Source: Chryseobacterium indoltheticum (GTDB lineage: Bacteria > Bacteroidota > Bacteroidia > Flavobacteriales > Weeksellaceae). Taken from it: 64,000 nt of DNA. The first letter of the stretch is position 1. The number at the start of each line of letters is the position of its first letter. Below, piece by piece: positions 36,204 through 48,592 of the stretch. The position numbers and the translations under genes were made by a program. Below the pieces are notes generated by a model that did not search any database, had not been told where the DNA came from, and was given only the letters and a program-made list of their open reading frames with translations. The DNA is taken from positions 2,542,001-2,606,000 of the forward strand of contig NZ_CP033929.1 in the NCBI RefSeq assembly GCF_003815915.1. The letters run 5' to 3'.

Positions 36204-36277
36204 TGGAGAATACGGGGATCGAACCCGTCACCTTTAGACTGCCAGTCTAACGCTCTAGCCAGATGAGCTAATTCCCC
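36204..36277 (-). tRNA. tRNA-Ala (anticodon GGC)
   Basis: A 74-nt tRNA read on the minus strand. The acceptor GGGGAAT pairs with ATTCTCC and includes the G3-U70 wobble that marks alanine tRNAs; the discriminator is A. The anticodon stem TTAGA/TCTAA encloses the loop CTGGCAG, giving anticodon GGC. The T-arm has GGTTCGATCC. The CCA end is not encoded. A full consensus promoter lies just upstream. Confidence 0.95.
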
Positions 36278-40152: not shown

Positions 40153-41236
40153 TGCCAAACGTTTTTTTCATAATACTTCAGGATTAGGGAATTATTCGAG
40201 AGATTTAGTTAGAATTCTGTCTAAATATTATCCTGAAAATCAATACTTATTACTCAACAAAAACAAATCTGAAAGAGGTTCCGATATTGTAGAAAACTCC
40301 GATGTTACCTTTGTAGAAACCTCTAAAGGAACGATGTCTCGCCAGTTTAAAATGGGAAAAGATGCGCAAAAAGAAGGTGCAGATATTTTCCATGGATTAT
40401 CAGGAGAATTACCTTTACAATGGGATAAAAAACCCATCAAAAAAATCGTCACAATTCACGATTTGATATTCGTAAGATATCCTCAATATTATTCTTTTTT
40501 TGACAGAAAAATCCATCTTTGGAAATTCAAAAAAGCGGCAAATACTGCAGATAAGATCATTGCGATTTCGGAGCAGACAAAAAGAGATATTATTCAATTT
40601 TTAAAAGTCTCTGAAAGTAAAATCGAAGTGATTTATCAAGGTTGTCATCAAGCTTTTAAAGAAGAACAATCCGAGGAATTTATTAAGAAAACCAAAAAAA
40701 AATTTAATCTTCCGGAACGGTTTATTTTAAATGTAGGAACGATTGAAGAACGTAAAAATCTTTTTAGCATTATTAAAGCAATAAAAGACACCACAATTCC
40801 TTTGGTTGTTGTTGGAAAGAAAACGAAGTATTTTCAAAAAATAAAGCATTTTATTGAGAAAAATAAAATGGAGGGACAAATTCATTTTTTGGAAGGAGTT
40901 TCAATGGATGAATTAGCAGCAATTTACAAGCTGGCAGATATTTTTGTTTACCCAAGCTTTTTTGAAGGATTTGGAATTCCCGTAATCGAAGCTCTTTTTT
41001 CAAAAACGGTTACGATTACAAGCAATACAAGCTGCCTTCCTGAAGCTGGAGGCCCGGATTCAGTTTACATCGATCCAAAAAATCATCTGGATATTCAATC
41101 AAAAATAAAATTTTTGTGGGATAGCGAATCTGAGAGAAAACGCCGTTCTGATAAAGGATTTGAGTTCGTTCAGAAGTTCAATGACGAGCCCATTGCGCAT
41201 CAGCTGATGAGTCTCTATCAAAAAAATATTTCTTAA
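40136..41236 (+). CDS. Glycosyltransferase family 4 (group 1)
   Basis: A 366-residue GT-B enzyme. The N-terminal Rossmann domain has DAKRFFHNTSGLGNYSRDL near residues 5-23. The C-terminal domain carries FILNVGTIEERKNLFSIIKAI near 198 and the nucleotide-sugar Glu motif YPSFFEGFGIPVIEAL near 278-293. It overlaps the GT32 gene by 17 bp, which suggests translational coupling and that the two act on one glycan. The his operon promoter follows directly. Confidence 0.9.
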   Translation: MKIAFDAKRFFHNTSGLGNYSRDLVRILSKYYPENQYLLLNKNKSERGSDIVENSDVTFVETSKGTMSRQFKMGKDAQKEGADIFHGLSGELPLQWDKKPIKKIVTIHDLIFVRYPQYYSFFDRKIHLWKFKKAANTADKIIAISEQTKRDIIQFLKVSESKIEVIYQGCHQAFKEEQSEEFIKKTKKKFNLPERFILNVGTIEERKNLFSIIKAIKDTTIPLVVVGKKTKYFQKIKHFIEKNKMEGQIHFLEGVSMDELAAIYKLADIFVYPSFFEGFGIPVIEALFSKTVTITSNTSCLPEAGGPDSVYIDPKNHLDIQSKIKFLWDSESERKRRSDKGFEFVQKFNDEPIAHQLMSLYQKNIS

Positions 41237-41240
41237 AATT

Positions 41241-41270
41241 CTTGTGGAATTAAAAATTAGTTCTACATTT
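41241..41270 (+). promoter_or_regulatory. Promoter of the histidine operon
   Basis: -33 TTG (41241-41243), a 19-bp spacer, -7 TACATTTG (41263-41270). The predicted start near 41276 is 17 bases before the leader-peptide ATG. Confidence 0.75.
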
Positions 41271-41292
41271 GTACCACAATATTCAAAGAAAT

Positions 41293-41340
41293 ATGAAACT
41301 GAATTTTTTAACAGTACATCATTATCATCATCTCTGCTAA
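41293..41340 (+). CDS. hisL: his operon leader peptide
   Basis: A 15-codon frame encoding MKLNFLTVHHYHHLC, ending in TAA at 41338-41340. Four of five consecutive codons are His (CAT CAT TAT CAT CAT). It lies between the his promoter and a terminator, ahead of hisG, exactly as attenuation leaders do. Ribosome stalling at the His codons would signal histidine shortage. It is too short to be found by size-based gene calling. Confidence 0.88.
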   Translation: MKLNFLTVHHYHHLC

Positions 41341-41413
41341 GACGGAATTGATTGATATGCAACACAGTTAAAAATCAAAAAATAATTAAACCGTCTGAGT
41401 AAACAGACGGTTT
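41340..41413 (+). promoter_or_regulatory. his attenuator: terminator and competing antiterminator
   Basis: Terminator: AAACCGTCTG (41388-41397) and CAGACGGTTT (41404-41413), followed by a T run. Competing arm: AGACGG at 41340-41345, identical to the 3' terminator arm, can pair with CCGTCT (41391-41396). A ribosome reaching the leader stop codon would cover this arm and allow termination; one stalled on the His codons would leave it free. Confidence 0.8.
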
Positions 41414-41488
41414 TTTGTTTCTAAATTCTTTCACGGTAATTTATTTCAGATAATCAGTTTTTATTTACTCAGACTCAATAAAATTGAA

Positions 41489-42346
41489 ATGAGTACATTA
41501 AAAATTGCCATACAAAAAAGCGGACGGCTTTATGAAGAATCTCTTCAGCTTCTCAAAGATTGCGGAATCCTCATCAACAACGGAAAAGACCAACTGAAAG
41601 TTTCTGTAGATAATTTCCCAATGGAAATCATGTATCTGCGAAATTCTGATATTCCCCAATATCTGGAAGATGGCGTAGTTGATATTGCTATTGTCGGCGA
41701 AAACCTCTTGGTCGAAAAACAGAAAAATATTGAAATTATCCAAAGTTTAGGATTTTCAAAATGCCGGGTTTCTTTAGCCATTCCTAAGGAAATTGAAACC
41801 GATGATATCACTTACTTCCAGGATAAAAGAATTGCAACTTCTTATCCCAATACTCTCAATAATTTTCTTTTAAAAAATAATATTTCTGCAGACATACACG
41901 TCATTTCCGGTTCAGTAGAAATTGCTCCAAATATCGGTCTTGCCGATGGAATCTGTGATATTGTAAGCTCCGGAAGTACTTTATTTAAAAATGGTTTAAG
42001 AGAAACTGTTACTATTTTAAAATCTGAAGCTGTTCTGGCTAAAACATCATTATTAAGTAATGATAAACAAAGTATTTTAGAAAAATTTCTGTTCAGAATT
42101 CAGTCTGTTTTAAGGGCAAAAAATTCTAAATATATTTTGATGAATGTTCCGAATGATAAGATTGCGGAAATCTCAAATATTCTTCCGGTCTTAAAAAGTC
42201 CTACCGTCATTCCTTTGGCAGAAAAGAATTGGAGCAGCATTCATTCCGTAATTGATGCAGAGCGGTTTTGGGAAGTTATAGATGAGCTGAAAGAAAAGGG
42301 AGCCCAAGATATTTTAATAATTCCAATCGATAAAATGGTCATATAA
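41489..42346 (+). CDS. hisG: ATP phosphoribosyltransferase, long form
   Basis: A 285-residue enzyme for the first, committed step of histidine synthesis: ATP + PRPP to phosphoribosyl-ATP. LKIAIQKSGRLYEESLQLL opens domain I; the PRPP-binding loop is ICDIVSSGSTLFKNGL near 161-176. A C-terminal ACT-like regulatory domain (about 215-285, ending EVIDELKEKGAQDILIIPIDKMV) marks the long, histidine-inhibited form, so no HisZ partner is needed. It is the first structural gene after the attenuator. Confidence 0.95.
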   Translation: MSTLKIAIQKSGRLYEESLQLLKDCGILINNGKDQLKVSVDNFPMEIMYLRNSDIPQYLEDGVVDIAIVGENLLVEKQKNIEIIQSLGFSKCRVSLAIPKEIETDDITYFQDKRIATSYPNTLNNFLLKNNISADIHVISGSVEIAPNIGLADGICDIVSSGSTLFKNGLRETVTILKSEAVLAKTSLLSNDKQSILEKFLFRIQSVLRAKNSKYILMNVPNDKIAEISNILPVLKSPTVIPLAEKNWSSIHSVIDAERFWEVIDELKEKGAQDILIIPIDKMVI

Positions 42347-42347
42347 T

Positions 42348-43622
42348 ATGAAAATTAATAAATATCCTCAAAAAGAAATCTGGCCAGAATTGGTAAAACG
42401 GCCAATTATAAAAAGAGAAGAAATTACAGAAATTATTGCTGAAATTTTTTCAAAAGTTAAAGAAAATGGTGATCAGGCATTAATTGATCTTAATAAAAAA
42501 TTTGATAAGGCTGAAATTAAAAATATCAATGTTTCTGAAGAAGAAATAGATAATGCAAAAGGTGTAATAAGCAGTGAATTAAAAAATGCAATTCAACAGG
42601 CAAAAGAAAATATTACAAAATTTCACGCTTCGCAAATTACCAAAATTGAGAAAATTGAAACTACAAAAGGAGTCATTTGCTGGCGAGAAAACAGAGCTAT
42701 CGAAAAAGTTGGAATCTATATTCCGGGAGGAACAGCGCCTTTATTTTCTACGGTTTTAATGCTGGCAATTACCGCTCAATTGGCTGGTTGTAAAGAAATT
42801 ATTTTGTGCACTCCGCCCGATAAAAATGGAAATATCAATCCAGCGATTCTTTATACTGCTCAACTTTGTGGAGTAAAAAAAATATTTAAAACCGGCGGTG
42901 CACAAGCTATTGCGGCAATGACTTTTGGTACAGAATCGGTTCCCAAAGTCTATAAAATTTTCGGTCCCGGAAACCAATTTGTTGTCGCAGCAAAAGATTT
43001 TGCTCAAAAATACAATGTAGCGATTGATATGCCTGCAGGACCAAGTGAAGTTTTGATAATTGCTGATGAAAAGGCGATACCAGAATATTGCGCTGCAGAT
43101 TTGCTTTCTCAGGCAGAGCACGGAAGTGACAGCCAGGTGATTTTTATTTCAACAGATTTAAGGATTTTAAATGAAACGATTGAGGAATTGAAAAAACAAA
43201 TTAAAGAGCTTCCCAGAAATGAGTTCGCTCAACAATCATTGAATAACAGCCATTTTATTTTATTGAATTCTGTTGATGAAGCTTTAGAATTCAGCAATTT
43301 GTATGCTCCTGAACATTTGATTTTAGCCATAGAAAATTTCGAAAACTATATCGATAAAATACAAAATGCCGGTTCTGTTTTTCTCGGAAATTACTCATGT
43401 GAAAGTGCCGGAGATTATGCGAGCGGAACCAATCATACGCTTCCAACTAATGGATTTGCAAAAAATTACAGCGGAGTTTCTTTAGACAGTTTTGTCAAAA
43501 AAATTACGTTTCAGAATTTGTCACAGGAAGGGTTACAAAATTTAGGTAAAACAATAGAGATCATGGCCGAAGCTGAAGGTCTTCTGGCACACAAAAATGC
43601 AGTATCAATAAGATTAAAATAA
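42348..43622 (+). CDS. hisD: Histidinol dehydrogenase
   Basis: A 424-residue zinc enzyme that carries out the last two oxidations, L-histidinol to L-histidine, with NAD+. Landmarks are VGIYIPGGTAPLFSTVLM near 119-136, IFGPGNQFVVAAK near 204-216, DMPAGPSEVLIIAD near 226, the zinc and catalytic residues in LSQAEHGSDSQVIF near 251-264, and LYAPEHL near 322. It begins 1 bp after the hisG stop. Confidence 0.96.
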   Translation: MKINKYPQKEIWPELVKRPIIKREEITEIIAEIFSKVKENGDQALIDLNKKFDKAEIKNINVSEEEIDNAKGVISSELKNAIQQAKENITKFHASQITKIEKIETTKGVICWRENRAIEKVGIYIPGGTAPLFSTVLMLAITAQLAGCKEIILCTPPDKNGNINPAILYTAQLCGVKKIFKTGGAQAIAAMTFGTESVPKVYKIFGPGNQFVVAAKDFAQKYNVAIDMPAGPSEVLIIADEKAIPEYCAADLLSQAEHGSDSQVIFISTDLRILNETIEELKKQIKELPRNEFAQQSLNNSHFILLNSVDEALEFSNLYAPEHLILAIENFENYIDKIQNAGSVFLGNYSCESAGDYASGTNHTLPTNGFAKNYSGVSLDSFVKKITFQNLSQEGLQNLGKTIEIMAEAEGLLAHKNAVSIRLK

Positions 43623-43626
43623 AAAT

Positions 43627-44661
43627 ATGACAACATTAAATATTAAAAAACTCGTTAGAAAAAATATATTGGAACTCAAACCGTACATTAGTTTCAGGGA
43701 TAATAATCAATTTAAAAATCCTGTATTGCTGGACGCAAACGAAAGTCCTTTCGGCGAATATCATCGTTATCCTGATTCTACACACAAAAAAATAAGAGAT
43801 AAAATAGCAGATTTTAAAAATATATATCCAAATCAAATTGCGATAGGAAATGGCAGTGATGAACTGATTGATTTAATCATCAAAATATTTTGTGAACCAA
43901 AAAAAGATTCTGTTTTAGTGATGAATCCTTCATTCGCGATGTACGGATTTTATGCAGCGATTAACGAAAATGAAGTTATATCGCTCAACCTTGATGAAAA
44001 TTTTGAGATTAAAAAAGAAGATTTTCTACAAACCGTTAAAGATAATCAGCCAAAGGTCTTATTTCTCTGTTCGCCAAATAATCCCACAGGAAATTCGATC
44101 CGTGATCTTGAGTTTTACATTAAAAATTTCAATGGAATTGTGGTTGTTGACGAAGCATATATCGAGTTTTCTAACCAGAAATCGTGTCTTGAACTTATTA
44201 ATAATTATCCTAATCTGATTGTCTTGCAAACCTTCTCAAAAGCGTGGGGTTTGGCTGGAGCAAGAGTTGGAGTTGCTTATTCTTCAGAAGAAATCACTTC
44301 TCTATTTTACACGGTTAAATCACCATTTAACGTTAATAATCTGAGCCAGAACTTGGTTTTAGAAATATTAGATCAGGTAGAAGATTTTCAGAATAATTTA
44401 AATAAAATCTTAGAAGAACGAGACTGGCTAAACGATCAGCTTACCCATATTGAATGTATTACAAAAGTATATCCGACTGATGCGAATTTCTTCTTGATTG
44501 AGTTTAAAGATGTAGAGAACGTTTACGCCAAACTGTTGGAAAATGAAATTTTGACAAGCAAAAGAAGTCCTCAAATCCCAAATTGTATCAGAATTAATGT
44601 AGGGAATAGAGAAGAAAATATTCAATTGATTAACGTTTTAAATCAATGCGAAACCTTATAG
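43627..44661 (+). CDS. hisC: Histidinol-phosphate aminotransferase
   Basis: A 344-residue PLP enzyme converting imidazole-acetol phosphate and glutamate to histidinol phosphate. LLDANESPFGEYHRYPD lies near residues 34-50, SPNNPTGNSI near 152, and the PLP lysine is in TFSKAWGLAGARVG near 205. It starts 4 bp after hisD. Its last codons and stop (ACC TTA TAG) lie inside a 33-bp perfect palindrome that extends into the hisC-hisB gap, so the C-terminus may have been set by that element. Confidence 0.95.
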   Translation: MTTLNIKKLVRKNILELKPYISFRDNNQFKNPVLLDANESPFGEYHRYPDSTHKKIRDKIADFKNIYPNQIAIGNGSDELIDLIIKIFCEPKKDSVLVMNPSFAMYGFYAAINENEVISLNLDENFEIKKEDFLQTVKDNQPKVLFLCSPNNPTGNSIRDLEFYIKNFNGIVVVDEAYIEFSNQKSCLELINNYPNLIVLQTFSKAWGLAGARVGVAYSSEEITSLFYTVKSPFNVNNLSQNLVLEILDQVEDFQNNLNKILEERDWLNDQLTHIECITKVYPTDANFFLIEFKDVENVYAKLLENEILTSKRSPQIPNCIRINVGNREENIQLINVLNQCETL

Positions 44662-44683
44662 GTTTTTAAAACCTATAAGGTTT
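44651..44683. repeat. 33-bp perfect palindrome at the hisC 3' end
   Basis: AAACCTTATAGGTTTT (44651-44666), one central T, then AAAACCTATAAGGTTT (44668-44683). It supplies the hisC stop codon. From memory, this kind of A/T-capped ACCTATAAGGT palindrome is dispersed in flavobacterial genomes. It lies between cotranscribed genes and might also lower downstream expression. Confidence 0.75.
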
Positions 44684-44722
44684 AATAGAGTTTCAAAATA
44701 ATAAATTTACAATTATTTAAAA

Positions 44723-45817
44723 ATGAAAAAAGTATTATTTATAGATCGAGACGGAACTTTAATTATTGAGCCACCGACCGATTTTCAGGTTGATTCTTTG
44801 GAAAAACTAGAATTTTATCCCGGTGTTTTTCAAAATTTATCAAAAATCGTAAAAGAATTAGATTACGAATTGGTAATGGTTACCAATCAAGACTGTTTGG
44901 GAACTGAAAGCTTTCCTTTTGAAAATTTCACAAAACCACATGAAAAGATGTTAAAAGCTTTTGAAAATGAAGGCATTGTTTTCAGTGACATTTTGATCGA
45001 TAAAAGTTTTGAAAATGAAAATTCGCCTAATCGAAAACCCGAAATTGGAATGCTTGGAAAATATATCTACGGAGATTATGATTTAAAAAATTCTTTTGTG
45101 ATCGGCGATCGATTGACTGATATTCAGTTGGCAAAAAACTTAGGTTCAAAAGCTATTTTCATCAGTGAATTAGAAAATCAAAATTCAGAACTAACAACAA
45201 AAAATTGGAATGAGATCTACCAATATTTAAAACAAATTCCAAGAAAAGCTAATGTTTTCAGAAATACAAATGAAACCGAAATTGAAATTGAAGTCAATCT
45301 CGATGGAAGCGGAAATTCCGAAATCTCAACAGGTCTTCATTTTTTTGACCATATGCTTGAACAAATATCAAAACACGGTAATTTAGATCTGAAAATTAAA
45401 GTAAAAGGAGATTTGCAGGTTGATGAGCATCATACAATCGAAGATACAGGTCTCGTTTTAGGCAAAGCTTTCGTTAAGGCTTTAGGTAAGAAAAAAGGAA
45501 TTGAAAGATATGGTTTTTTGCTTCCGATGGATGATTGCCTTTCTCAGATTGCCATTGATTTTGGCGGACGGCCTTGGTTGGTTTGGAATGTTAATTTTAA
45601 AAGAGAAAAAATTGGTGATGTACCGACAGAAATGTTTGAGCACTTTTTCAAATCTTTTTCAGATACCGCAAAATGCAATTTGAATATCAAGTCTGAAGGA
45701 GAAAATGAGCACCACAAAATAGAATCGATTTTCAAAGCATTTGCAAAAACTATAAAAATGGCGGTAAAACAAACGGATCAAAACTATAATTTACCATCCA
45801 CAAAAGGAAGTTTATAA
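44723..45817 (+). CDS. hisB: Bifunctional histidinol-phosphatase / imidazoleglycerol-phosphate dehydratase
   Basis: A 364-residue two-domain enzyme for steps 6 and 8. The N-terminal HAD phosphatase has the nucleophile motif FIDRDGTLI at residues 6-14 and [17 protein letters not shown] near 126-142. The C-terminal dehydratase (from about 178) has the metal-binding [14 protein letters not shown] near 205 and [14 protein letters not shown] near 233. This fused form is also known from enterobacteria. The stop overlaps the hisH start by one base. Confidence 0.96.
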
Positions 45818-46395
45818 TGATAGCAATTTTAAAATACAACGGCGGAAACGTAAGTTCTGTACAAAATGCATTGAACAGATTAGGAGCAGAATCTATCATT
45901 ACGGATGATTTTGAATTGATAAAAAAAGCCGATAAAGTAATTTTTCCGGGAGTTGGAGAGGCATCTTCAACAATGAAAATTTTAAAGGAAAAAGGATTAG
46001 ACCAGTTAATTCCAAGTTTGAAGCAGCCTGTTTTGGGAATCTGTCTTGGAATGCAGTTAATGTGTAAAAATAATGAAGAAGGAAATACAGTCGGAATGGG
46101 AATTTTTGATTGTAATGTAAAAAAGTTTCCGTCGCTTGACCTTGTTCCGCACATGGGTTGGAACACGGTTTTAGATTTAAAATCTCCATTATTTTCGGAG
46201 ATTTCGGAGGAAGATGATCTGTATTTTGTTCACAGTTTTTATTGCGAGTTATCAGAAAATACAACTTCGGTTTGTGATTACATTTTGCCTTTCAGTGCAT
46301 CGTTGCAGAAAGATAATTTTTTTGCTACTCAATTTCATCCTGAAAAATCAGGAAAAGTAGGAAACAAAATGCTAGAAAATTTCTTAAAAATCTAA
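45817..46395 (+). CDS. hisH: Imidazole glycerol phosphate synthase, glutaminase subunit
   Basis: A 192-residue class I glutamine amidotransferase that supplies ammonia to HisF. The oxyanion/nucleophile motif LGICLGMQLM places Cys near residue 76; the His-Glu pair is in FHPEKSG near 171-175. VIFPGVGEASSTM near 41 is the family's glycine-rich loop. It is translationally coupled to hisB. Confidence 0.95.
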   Translation: MIAILKYNGGNVSSVQNALNRLGAESIITDDFELIKKADKVIFPGVGEASSTMKILKEKGLDQLIPSLKQPVLGICLGMQLMCKNNEEGNTVGMGIFDCNVKKFPSLDLVPHMGWNTVLDLKSPLFSEISEEDDLYFVHSFYCELSENTTSVCDYILPFSASLQKDNFFATQFHPEKSGKVGNKMLENFLKI

Positions 46396-46410
46396 ATAAA
46401 ACTATTAAAA

Positions 46411-47124
46411 ATGAAAATAATTCCCGCCATAGATATTATTGATGGAAAGTGTGTAAGACTGTCAAAAGGAGATTACAACACAAAGAAAATCTATAATGAA
46501 AATCCGTTGGAAATTGCCAAAGAATTTGAAGATTGTGGAATCAGATTTTTGCATGTGGTAGATTTGGACGGTGCAAAATCAAAACATATTGTTAATCAAA
46601 AAGTGCTGGAAACTTTAGCTAGTAAAACATCTTTGCACATTGATTTCGGTGGAGGACTAAAAAGCGAAAAAGATATCGAAACAGCTTTTAATTGTGGCGC
46701 AAAACAAATTACAATCGGAAGTATTGCCGTTCAAAATCCTGAGTTTTGTTTTCAACTCATCAAAAAATATGGTGCAGAAAAGATAATTCTCGGAGCTGAT
46801 TGTGAAAATAAAAAAATAAAAACTTCAGGGTGGCTGGAAGAAAGCAATCAAGATGTTATTGATTTTATTCTTAATTATCAGAAAAATGGAATTAAAAATG
46901 TGATTTGCACCGATATTTCAAAAGATGGAATGTTGCAAGGAGCCTCAGAAGATTTGTACGCAGAAATTTTAGATAAAACAAATACTAAACTTATTGCAAG
47001 TGGCGGAATTTCCTGCATTGAAGATGTTTGTAAAATGAAAGAAATAGGTTGCAGCGGAACCATTATCGGAAAAGCGATTTATGAAGGAAATATTTCACTA
47101 AAACAATTGGAAAGTTTTATTTAA
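46411..47124 (+). CDS. hisA: ProFAR isomerase (HisA)
   Basis: A 237-residue (beta/alpha)8 isomerase converting ProFAR to PRFAR. Catalytic Asp8 is in [14 protein letters not shown] and the second Asp in [14 protein letters not shown] near 169-175. Phosphate-binding loops [12 protein letters not shown] near 77 and [11 protein letters not shown] near 194 are present. It lies 15 bp after hisH and 131 bp before hisF. Confidence 0.95.
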
Positions 47125-47160
47125 CCACAAAAGTTTTTACAAAAATTAATCTTCACGAAA

Positions 47161-47204
47161 GTCCCAAAGGGACGATTTAGTAAAGGATAGGATGAAGTCC
47201 TATC
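47161..47204. repeat. Paired short palindromes in the hisA-hisF gap
   Basis: GTCCCAAAGGGAC (47161-47173) and GATAGGA/TCCTATC (47186-47192 and 47198-47204) lie 12 bp apart in the only long gap among the his genes. The wording resembles REP-like flavobacterial repeats. A weak internal promoter (TGTATTTG, one mismatch to TAnnTTTG) follows at about 47227. Confidence 0.6.
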
Positions 47205-47255
47205 AAAAAATATAATTCAAAAAATTGTGTATTTGCATCATATCAATAAAATAAA

Positions 47256-48008
47256 ATGCTTAAAAAAAGAATAATCCCATGTCTGGATATAAAAGACGGA
47301 ACTACCGTAAAAGGAATCAACTTTGAAGGTTTAAGAAATGCCGGAAACCCAATAGTTTTAGCCAAAAAATATGAAAATGAAGGAGCTGACGAATTGGTTT
47401 TTCTCGACATTACCGCCACAATTGAAGAACGGAAAACATTTGTTGAACTCGTTAAAAATATTGCCAAAGAACTCAGTATTCCATTTACAGTTGGGGGCGG
47501 AATTTCTTCTGTTGAAGATGTAAGAAAATTACTGGAAGCCGGAGCAGATAAAATCAGCATTAATTCGTCTGCAGTGAAAAATCCGTGTTTGATTTCTGAC
47601 TTAGCTAGAGAATTTGGCAGTCAGTGCATTGTCGTTGCCATTGATACAAAACTGATAAATGATACCGATTGGGTTTTTGTAAAAGGTGGAAGAGAAATAA
47701 CTGATTTAAAAACTTTAGATTGGGCAAAAAGAACCGAAGAATTGGGTGCAGGCGAAATTCTTTTAACCTCAATGAATGGAGACGGAACTAAAAACGGCTT
47801 TGATTTGAGACTTACAAAACTGATTTCAGATGCTGTAAATATTCCGGTGATTGCCTCTGGCGGCGCCGGAAAAACCGAAGATTTTAAAAATGTATTTAAT
47901 CAGACCAAAGCAACGGGAGCTTTGGCTGCAAGCGTTTTCCATTTTGGTGAAATTAGAATTGATGATTTAAAAAACGAATTGAAAAATAAAAATATTAATG
48001 TAAGATGA
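47256..48008 (+). CDS. hisF: Imidazole glycerol phosphate synthase, cyclase subunit
   Basis: A 250-residue (beta/alpha)8 cyclase that, with HisH, turns PRFAR into imidazole glycerol phosphate and AICAR. Catalytic Asp11 is in [14 protein letters not shown] and the second Asp in [15 protein letters not shown] near 131. Phosphate loops are [13 protein letters not shown] near 78 and [12 protein letters not shown] near 203. It overlaps hisIE by 4 bp (ATGA). Confidence 0.96.
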
Positions 48009-48592
48009 AAATAGATTTTAGTAAAACAAATGGTCTTGTTCCGGTAATTATTCAGGATGAAAGAACTTTGCAGGTTTTAATGTTGGGCTATATGAATGAA
48101 GAGGCTTTTAGCAAAACAAAAGAAGAAGGAATTGTCACTTTTTTCAGTCGTTCAAAAAACAGATTATGGACAAAAGGTGAGGAGTCAGGAAACTTTTTAA
48201 GCGTAAAAAATATTGAAGTAGATTGTGATCAGGATACGATCCTAATTAAAGTTATTCCCACAAATACCGTTTGTCATACCGGAAGTTTCAGCTGTTTTGG
48301 AGAAAAAGATAGCAAAGGATTTTTGTATGAGCTTGAAGAAAAAATAAGCCAGCGAATTGATGATAAGATTCAAGACTCTTATACTTATTCTTTGTACCAG
48401 AAAGGGATTAATAAAGTTGCTCAAAAAGTAGGAGAAGAGGCTGTAGAATTGGTAATAGAAGCAAAAGATGATAATGAAAATCTGTTTAAAAATGAAGCTG
48501 CCGATTTACTATATCACTTTTTAATTTTACTGAAAGCTAAAAATATACATTTAGCAGATATTGAAGAAATACTTTTGGACAGAAATAAATAA
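48005..48592 (+). CDS. hisIE: Bifunctional phosphoribosyl-AMP cyclohydrolase / phosphoribosyl-ATP pyrophosphatase
   Basis: A 195-residue fusion for steps 2 and 3. The HisI part has [12 protein letters not shown] near residues 26-37, [18 protein letters not shown] near 48-65, and the zinc-binding [13 protein letters not shown] near 89-101. The HisE part (from about 110) shows [19 protein letters not shown] and [14 protein letters not shown]. It completes the operon; an inverted repeat follows. Confidence 0.95.

Follow-up and report, generated by a model that had tools for sequence, protein, structure and literature searches.

The enterobacterial trp attenuator consists of a protector (1:2), an antiterminator (2:3) and a terminator (3:4), and the enterobacterial his leader has more alternative stems than these three. 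A comparative paper by Vitreschak and colleagues from 2004 reportedly mentions attenuators in Bacteroidetes/Chlorobi. Closer to the locus studied here, the portion of PMC9723704 available to us describes leader-peptide attenuation candidates before amino-acid operons in Flavobacterium psychrophilum and other Flavobacteriaceae, together with a conserved structured 5' element before hisG, with no Rfam hit, in F. psychrophilum and relatives. For another amino acid, the Bacteroid-trp motif (RF01692) of Bacteroidetes is marked as a likely cis-regulatory RNA in Table 1 of PMC2864571, the part of that paper used here. The accessible sections of PMC6429828 contain nothing on a hisG leader element.

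Here, we analyzed a stretch of 64,000 nucleotides from Chryseobacterium indoltheticum (contig NZ_CP033929.1, positions 2,542,001 to 2,606,000), hereafter the window, from whose first nucleotide all positions are counted. The region upstream of hisG very probably encodes a ribosome-mediated histidine attenuator built from three helices that exclude one another. Leader-peptide attenuation and a 5' element of hisG have already been reported in Flavobacteriaceae; the attenuator found here is a well-supported addition to them, and what it contributes is the anatomy of the element, its protector, its co-variation and its reach across the phylum.

The leader and its surroundings

According to the ORF list, the his operon, hisG-hisD-hisC-hisB-hisH-hisA-hisF-hisIE, occupies 41489..48592 on the forward strand, and every one of its eight genes is matched above the cut-off by one or more NCBIfam models carrying that gene's name. 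Of the 80 closest hisG loci found in named genomes, 70 carry the name Chryseobacterium. A gap of 252 nt separates the end of a glycosyltransferase-like gene on the forward strand (41236) from the start of hisG (41489), and it contains a promoter motif, a 15-codon ORF and an intrinsic terminator. Elsewhere in the window, a tRNA gene at 36204-36277 on the reverse strand is the sole Rfam match at gathering score.

The promoter is of the Bacteroidota type (41242..41271, forward strand) and combines TTG at 41242-41244 with TACATTTG at 41264-41271, 19 nt apart; transcription would be expected to start near 41277. We take TAnnTTTG to be the Bacteroidota promoter consensus. A reading of this DNA made from the letters alone, hereafter the sequence-only reading, had placed a promoter here, and the motif is both present and kept before the leaders of relatives: TAnnTTTG lies at most 75 nt 5' of the leader at 71 of 71 loci in the genus and at 114 of 146 elsewhere, compared with 114 of 2170 mononucleotide shuffles. 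A sigma-70 scan for the TTGACA/TATAAT consensus returned 0 promoters against a shuffle mean of 3.0.

The leader ORF, MKLNFLTVHHYHHLC, spans 15 codons on the forward strand (41293..41340), from ATG at 41293 to TAA at 41338-41340, and its stop lies 148 nt from hisG. Its regulatory codons, His-His-Tyr-His-His (CAT CAT TAT CAT CAT), can be read directly in the sequence at 41317..41331, so that the 15-codon frame with four His among five codons, as claimed earlier, is indeed there. Conservation of this run in relatives had been named beforehand as decisive. Among 141 hisG upstreams drawn from the same genus and family, 140 contain a His-run ORF (at least three His in six codons) and 130 contain at least four His, whereas dinucleotide shuffles of the same family regions yielded such an ORF in 8 of 1410 cases. 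The one family locus without a His-run ORF, L059, belongs to a genome of 1.6 Mb that is 83% complete. The biosynthetic operon is thus preceded by a short frame in which codons for its end product form a run.

Between the leader and the first gene, the terminator scan located an intrinsic terminator with a 10-bp stem and a 6-nt loop, followed by T's (41388..41413, forward strand). Two terminator-like sites were found, which are one hairpin scored on both strands, against a shuffle mean of 0.1, and the hairpin coincides to the nucleotide with the one proposed in the sequence-only reading. In an alignment of 87 loci sampled by genus, 92.9% of the cells of the terminator stem are paired, and two-sided changes occur in all 10 of its 10 pairs. 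Of all 217 leaders, 18 show no terminator or only a weak one, the finder requiring a hairpin stronger than -8 kcal/mol. In family f35, which lies outside the class, the terminator finder found none after the His-rich ORFs that precede hisG at several loci (L171, L173, L174, L181, L190-L192 and L194); these loci possibly have another output, such as translation control.

Pairing of the leader arm with the terminator

Pairing analysis identified an antiterminator arm, TGCTAAGACGG (41335..41345, forward strand), which overlaps the leader stop codon. Its partner, CCGTCTGAGTA (41391..41401, forward strand), comprises the 5' arm and the loop of the terminator, and 10 of the 11 positions pair. AGACGG at 41340-41345, a copy of the terminator's 3' arm, is the only AGACGG within 41276-41387, and CCGTCT lies at 41391-41396. 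The duplicated arm at the stop codon and its CCGTCT target are accordingly real, and the sequence-only reading had understated the length of the duplicated arm.

We evaluated this pairing across loci by testing the leader sequence between the first His codon and the terminator, that codon included, against the terminator 5' arm plus loop, with shuffled leaders as the control and p<=0.05 as the threshold. We removed three duplicates and the 16 loci from 0.6-Mb genomes ahead of the terminator and pairing tests; dropping in addition the 18 leaders, of the 217, whose terminator was absent or not stronger than -8 kcal/mol left 199. The pairing was significant at 168 of these 199 loci, and at 71 of 71 within the genus. 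Counted by genus, 52 of 59 have at least one significant member and 47 of 59 a significant majority. In 7 of the 59 no member reached significance, the weak spots including some single-locus genera, and in genus g26 the pairing is weak (4 of 20 loci at p<=0.05). With the exceptions of g26 and these 7 of 59 genera, the leaders possess an antiterminator that would exclude the terminator, at a distance fixed by the regulatory codons.

Swapping leaders and terminators among the 59 genera gave the same picture. Native combinations pair at -14.26 kcal/mol versus -9.62 kcal/mol for swapped ones, and the best of 5000 permutations reached -10.99 kcal/mol; after correction for composition, the values are z -3.23 versus -0.96, with a best permutation of -1.70. 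In the 87-row alignment, the 11 antiterminator pairs are formed in 72.6% of cells compared with 26-38% when slid. Cells changed on both sides number 34, compared with 18.1 (sd 3.0) in shuffles, and 8 pairs show a two-sided change, a number reached by 14 of 500 shuffles; the number of pair types in these rows is not unusual (94 of 500 shuffles).

Co-variation of the two arms had been set beforehand as a check, and it appears between genera but not within Chryseobacterium. Among 107 Chryseobacterium leaders, the antiterminator helix is formed in 99.4% of 963 cells, all changes are one-sided, and no shuffle measure for the helix is above chance, so that conservation rather than co-variation is what these leaders demonstrate. 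The stop codon of these 107 leaders is TAA in 55, TAG in 49 and TGA in 3, and it is retained despite the one-base difference at the arm.

The arm starts 18-34 nt (5th-95th percentile; median 21) past the first base of the first His codon, it begins more than 12 nt past that base in all 168 significant loci, and its 3' end falls at -10 to +5 relative to the stop codon's last base (5th-95th percentile, 168 loci). The footprint of a ribosome reaches about 12 nt ahead of the A site. A ribosome at the first His codons would leave the arm free, and a ribosome at the stop would cover it.

The sequence-only reading had further regarded the stop codon itself as the site of the antiterminator. Its arm does pair with the terminator; the overlap with the stop, however, is not general. 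Among the 107 Chryseobacterium leaders, 101 have an arm that overlaps the stop codon, and in the other 6 the frame extends to 20-22 codons, with the stop further downstream. Judged by eye, most other genera carry the arm within the frame, its start about 9-23 nt 5' of the stop, and a few others also have it on the stop, e.g. g14 and some f17 genera. Overlap with the stop is therefore one arrangement of several, not a principle.

A U.U mismatch in the middle of the terminator stem was observed at L060, L108, L110-L112, L047, L052, L054 and L103. At these loci, the leader copy is complementary where the terminator's own 3' arm has U.U; L060, for instance, has CCGTCTGA then TCAGTCGG in the terminator, whereas its leader has CAGACGG. 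The mismatch may tune the balance between terminator and antiterminator.

The predicted protector hairpin and the proposed switch

Folds, pair counts and the loci of other genera point to a protector hairpin around the antiterminator arm (41305..41374, forward strand). In the fold, the outer stem joins TTTTTTAACAGT at 41305-41315 with ACAGTTAAAAA at 41364-41374, and the middle stem joins the His-Tyr-His codons at 41320-41330 with GATTGATATG at 41349-41359, both on the forward strand; the inner hairpin, 41333-41336 with 41343-41346 on the same strand, ties up 5 of the 11 arm bases. The design had been described in the sequence-only reading as simpler than the enterobacterial one. This description is not supported, since a predicted protector hairpin encloses the arm and the element follows the three-helix logic of the trp attenuator.

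A competing model, the one given in the sequence-only reading, dispenses with the protector and sets only the stop-codon arm against the terminator: in such a two-arm attenuator, ribosome-free RNA would read through by default. It draws on the observation that arm and terminator are the best conserved parts of the element (the 99.4% of 963 genus cells given above), and RNAalifold, run on the 87-row and the 107-row alignments, did not recover the protector. The folding of the leaders argues against this model. The window leader before the terminator folds at -16.2 kcal/mol, and 4 of 200 shuffles fold as well; the 107 genus leaders have a median z of -2.57, with 89% below -1.65. Over all genera, with at most two loci from each, 55 of 75 leaders lie below -1.65 (median -2.60), and the remaining 20 of 75 do not fold significantly better than shuffles. 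At least six pairs surround the arm in 69 of the same 75 leaders, a figure that has no control.

Pair counts within the genus bear on the same question. Spacer lengths vary, so the protector pair columns were taken from single-sequence folds, which biases the counts toward structure, and the slid controls correct this bias in part. Repeated-leader loci, L293 (short upstream) and L321 (cut inside the leader) were left out of the genus alignment. Counted in this way, the outer stem is formed in 86.0% of cells, compared with 35-58% when slid, again contrary to a design without a protector. Compensatory replacements turn A-U into G-C in 29 rows and U-A into C-G in 7 rows. Outer-stem cells changed on both sides number 52 versus 18.6, above every shuffle, whereas the numbers of two-sided changed pairs and of pair types are not above shuffles. 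These changes also alter the peptide (Thr7 to Ala, Leu6 to Ser), which means that peptide and distal strand changed jointly. On a hisG tree of 67 rows, from which 40 of the 107 genus rows without a complete hisG were excluded, the 5' strand made each compensatory change once only; the co-variation support within the genus thus amounts to two 5'-strand changes, a point on the side of the two-arm model. In the middle and inner stems, 96.8% of cells are paired, compared with 16-49% slid, which is weak evidence by itself because these stems vary little, and the middle stem is also constrained by the His codons. The bases of the Tyr codon are paired in 95, 100 and 90 of 107 genus rows as part of the middle stem, and this pairing may explain the odd His-His-Tyr-His-His order.

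On the strength of leader folding z and outer-stem pair counts, we rejected the two-arm design without a protector, which we consider improbable. The three-helix attenuator is retained, with a protector that as a predicted structure would give termination without translation and whose co-variation support is modest. Because the protector encloses the arm, RNA that is not translated, or that the ribosome has left, should terminate in the manner of the trp attenuator, and the protector, antiterminator and terminator helices together would make a three-state switch, as in trp.

What the computation shows is the leader, three helices that are conserved and co-vary, and a link to hisG. For the cell, we infer that a ribosome waiting for charged tRNA-His, and the stretch of RNA it occupies, would set termination against read-through. 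Transcription would begin just past TACATTTG, and a ribosome would start on the leader. When histidine is plentiful, the ribosome would reach the stop and cover the arm at 41335-41345, preventing it from pairing with 41391-41401; with the arm covered, the terminator would form and transcription would end before hisG. When histidine is scarce, the ribosome would wait at the first His codons (41317-41322) and hold the protector open, leaving the arm, 18 nt downstream, free to pair with CCGTCTGAGTA. This helix would preclude the terminator, and hisG to hisIE would be transcribed. In RNA that is not translated, or after release of the ribosome, the protector (about 41305-41374) would form around the arm and the terminator would win.

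Distribution across Bacteroidota and comparison with known systems

When a covariance model built from the genus element was run on the 118 genus genomes, 112 of them had a single strong match (E<=1.6e-16), with the next matches from E 8.8e-4; checked by eye, no genome carries the strong match twice. The six remaining genomes comprise five that also lack a hisG match (G021, G063, G071, G072 and G078) and G089, whose hisG match starts at base 109 of its contig. The former five are possible histidine auxotrophs; one of them, G021, is a draft in 360 contigs. A comparison by eye of 15 genomes placed the end of the element 77-84 nt before the start of the hisG family match in all 15. At G062:C1:100984-101450 and G092:C1:4497555-4498093, hisG is split or interrupted by stops, whereas the covariance model finds the upstream leader intact; the completeness of G062 is only 75%, so that sequencing errors are possible.

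Beyond the genus and family, 77 of 115 further loci have a His-run ORF (three duplicates removed; this count has no shuffle control). By eye, the ORF is found in 28 of 29 loci at the order level outside the 0.6-Mb group, 23 of 24 at the class level outside the order, and 26 of 46 at the phylum level outside the class. In the group of 0.6-Mb genomes (genus g51: L146-L148, L150, L151, L153, L154, L156, L158, L159, L161-L164, L166 and L167), 0 of 16 hisG upstreams have a His-run leader; apparently, the switch was lost in lineages with small genomes and hisG was retained.

The same genome also contains a Trp-run leader, MIISNNKNWWWHSNSSSGLMLLSCC (L260:1281-1358, G000:C1 near 3.05 Mb), before a trpE-like gene that scores 409.9 bits, below the family cut-off of 517.7. 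At this one locus, for which there is no control, we found an in-frame arm with TCGTCGGGTCT, a protector hairpin and a terminator whose stem lies at L260:1394-1417, and the TCGTCGGGTCT arm pairs with the terminator arm at -13.2 kcal/mol. The plan of the Trp-run leader is the same as that of the his leader. The genome has no ilvD match and hence no ilv leader for comparison, and upstream of its one homoserine dehydrogenase gene no run-type leader was found among ATG-started ORFs.

These data also bear on the view that there is no histidine switch at all. The hairpin could simply be the terminator of the upstream glycosyltransferase-like gene, which ends at 41236 on the same strand, so that its transcripts would meet it; or the ORF could be a plain upstream frame that aids translation, its His run having another role such as metal binding. 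Against both stand a promoter motif between the upstream gene and the leader, a leader arm that co-varies with the terminator, an element that in the genus is single-copy and absent where hisG is absent, and a Trp-run leader before the trpE-like gene of the same genome. Moreover, the leader stop lies 148 nt from hisG, far from the distance peak of 11-14 bp given for Bacteroidetes leader genes in the part of PMC4833913 available to us. We rejected these explanations on the arm co-variation, the promoter motif, the hisG linkage and the distance from stop to hisG, and regard them as highly improbable.

Returning to the histidine attenuator, we lean slightly toward a single form that is ancestral to much of Bacteroidota and combines regulatory codons, ORF end and antiterminator arm in one protector hairpin. 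On this view, co-variation of its arms retuned the attenuator, small-genome lineages lost it, and the similarly built Trp leader echoes it. The analysis provides a concrete regulatory model, with named arms that can be mutated, for the his operons of Chryseobacterium and most sampled relatives. Because a working attenuator needs a ribosome close behind RNA polymerase, the coupling of transcription and translation in Bacteroidota, where translation initiation hardly uses Shine-Dalgarno pairing, could be tested with this element by simple genetics; if the attenuator works, the coupling between RNA polymerase and ribosome must be close in this phylum. On coupling and runaway transcription in Bacteroidetes, the literature as far as it was accessible yielded nothing but a review.

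Among described RNA families, the Rfam His_leader (RF00514) resembles the element in its His-run leader peptide, its intrinsic terminator and its his operon. It aligns end to end (1-126) to the window with 29.8 bits (E 0.003 to 0.0037) and is the top of 16 matches up to E 10 in 41200-41500, but it does not reach the gathering cut-off of 49 bits and is absent from the gathering-score search of the window. It scored 36.0 bits at L152 and 33.6 bits at L126, both below the cut-off, and gave no match at E<=0.1 in the other 7 loci of that test; annotation based on the cut-off would therefore miss the element in the window and the tested loci. The name of the Bacteroid-trp motif, RF01692, which PMC2864571 marks as a likely cis-regulatory RNA, ties it to trp genes; it concerns another amino acid, does not figure in the list of 16 matches for 41200-41500 (E up to 10), and gave no match at E<=0.1 to the trp leader locus L260.

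The hisG element described in PMC9723704, to judge from the text available to us, is very probably the same element in other genera, and that text does not describe arms, protector or co-variation. Relative to the enterobacterial his leader with its extra alternative stems, the Chryseobacterium element has three helices. It shares its protector, antiterminator and terminator logic with the trp attenuator and differs from it in that His codons would be sensed and in the placement of the arm, which lies on the stop codon here and in-frame in most other genera.
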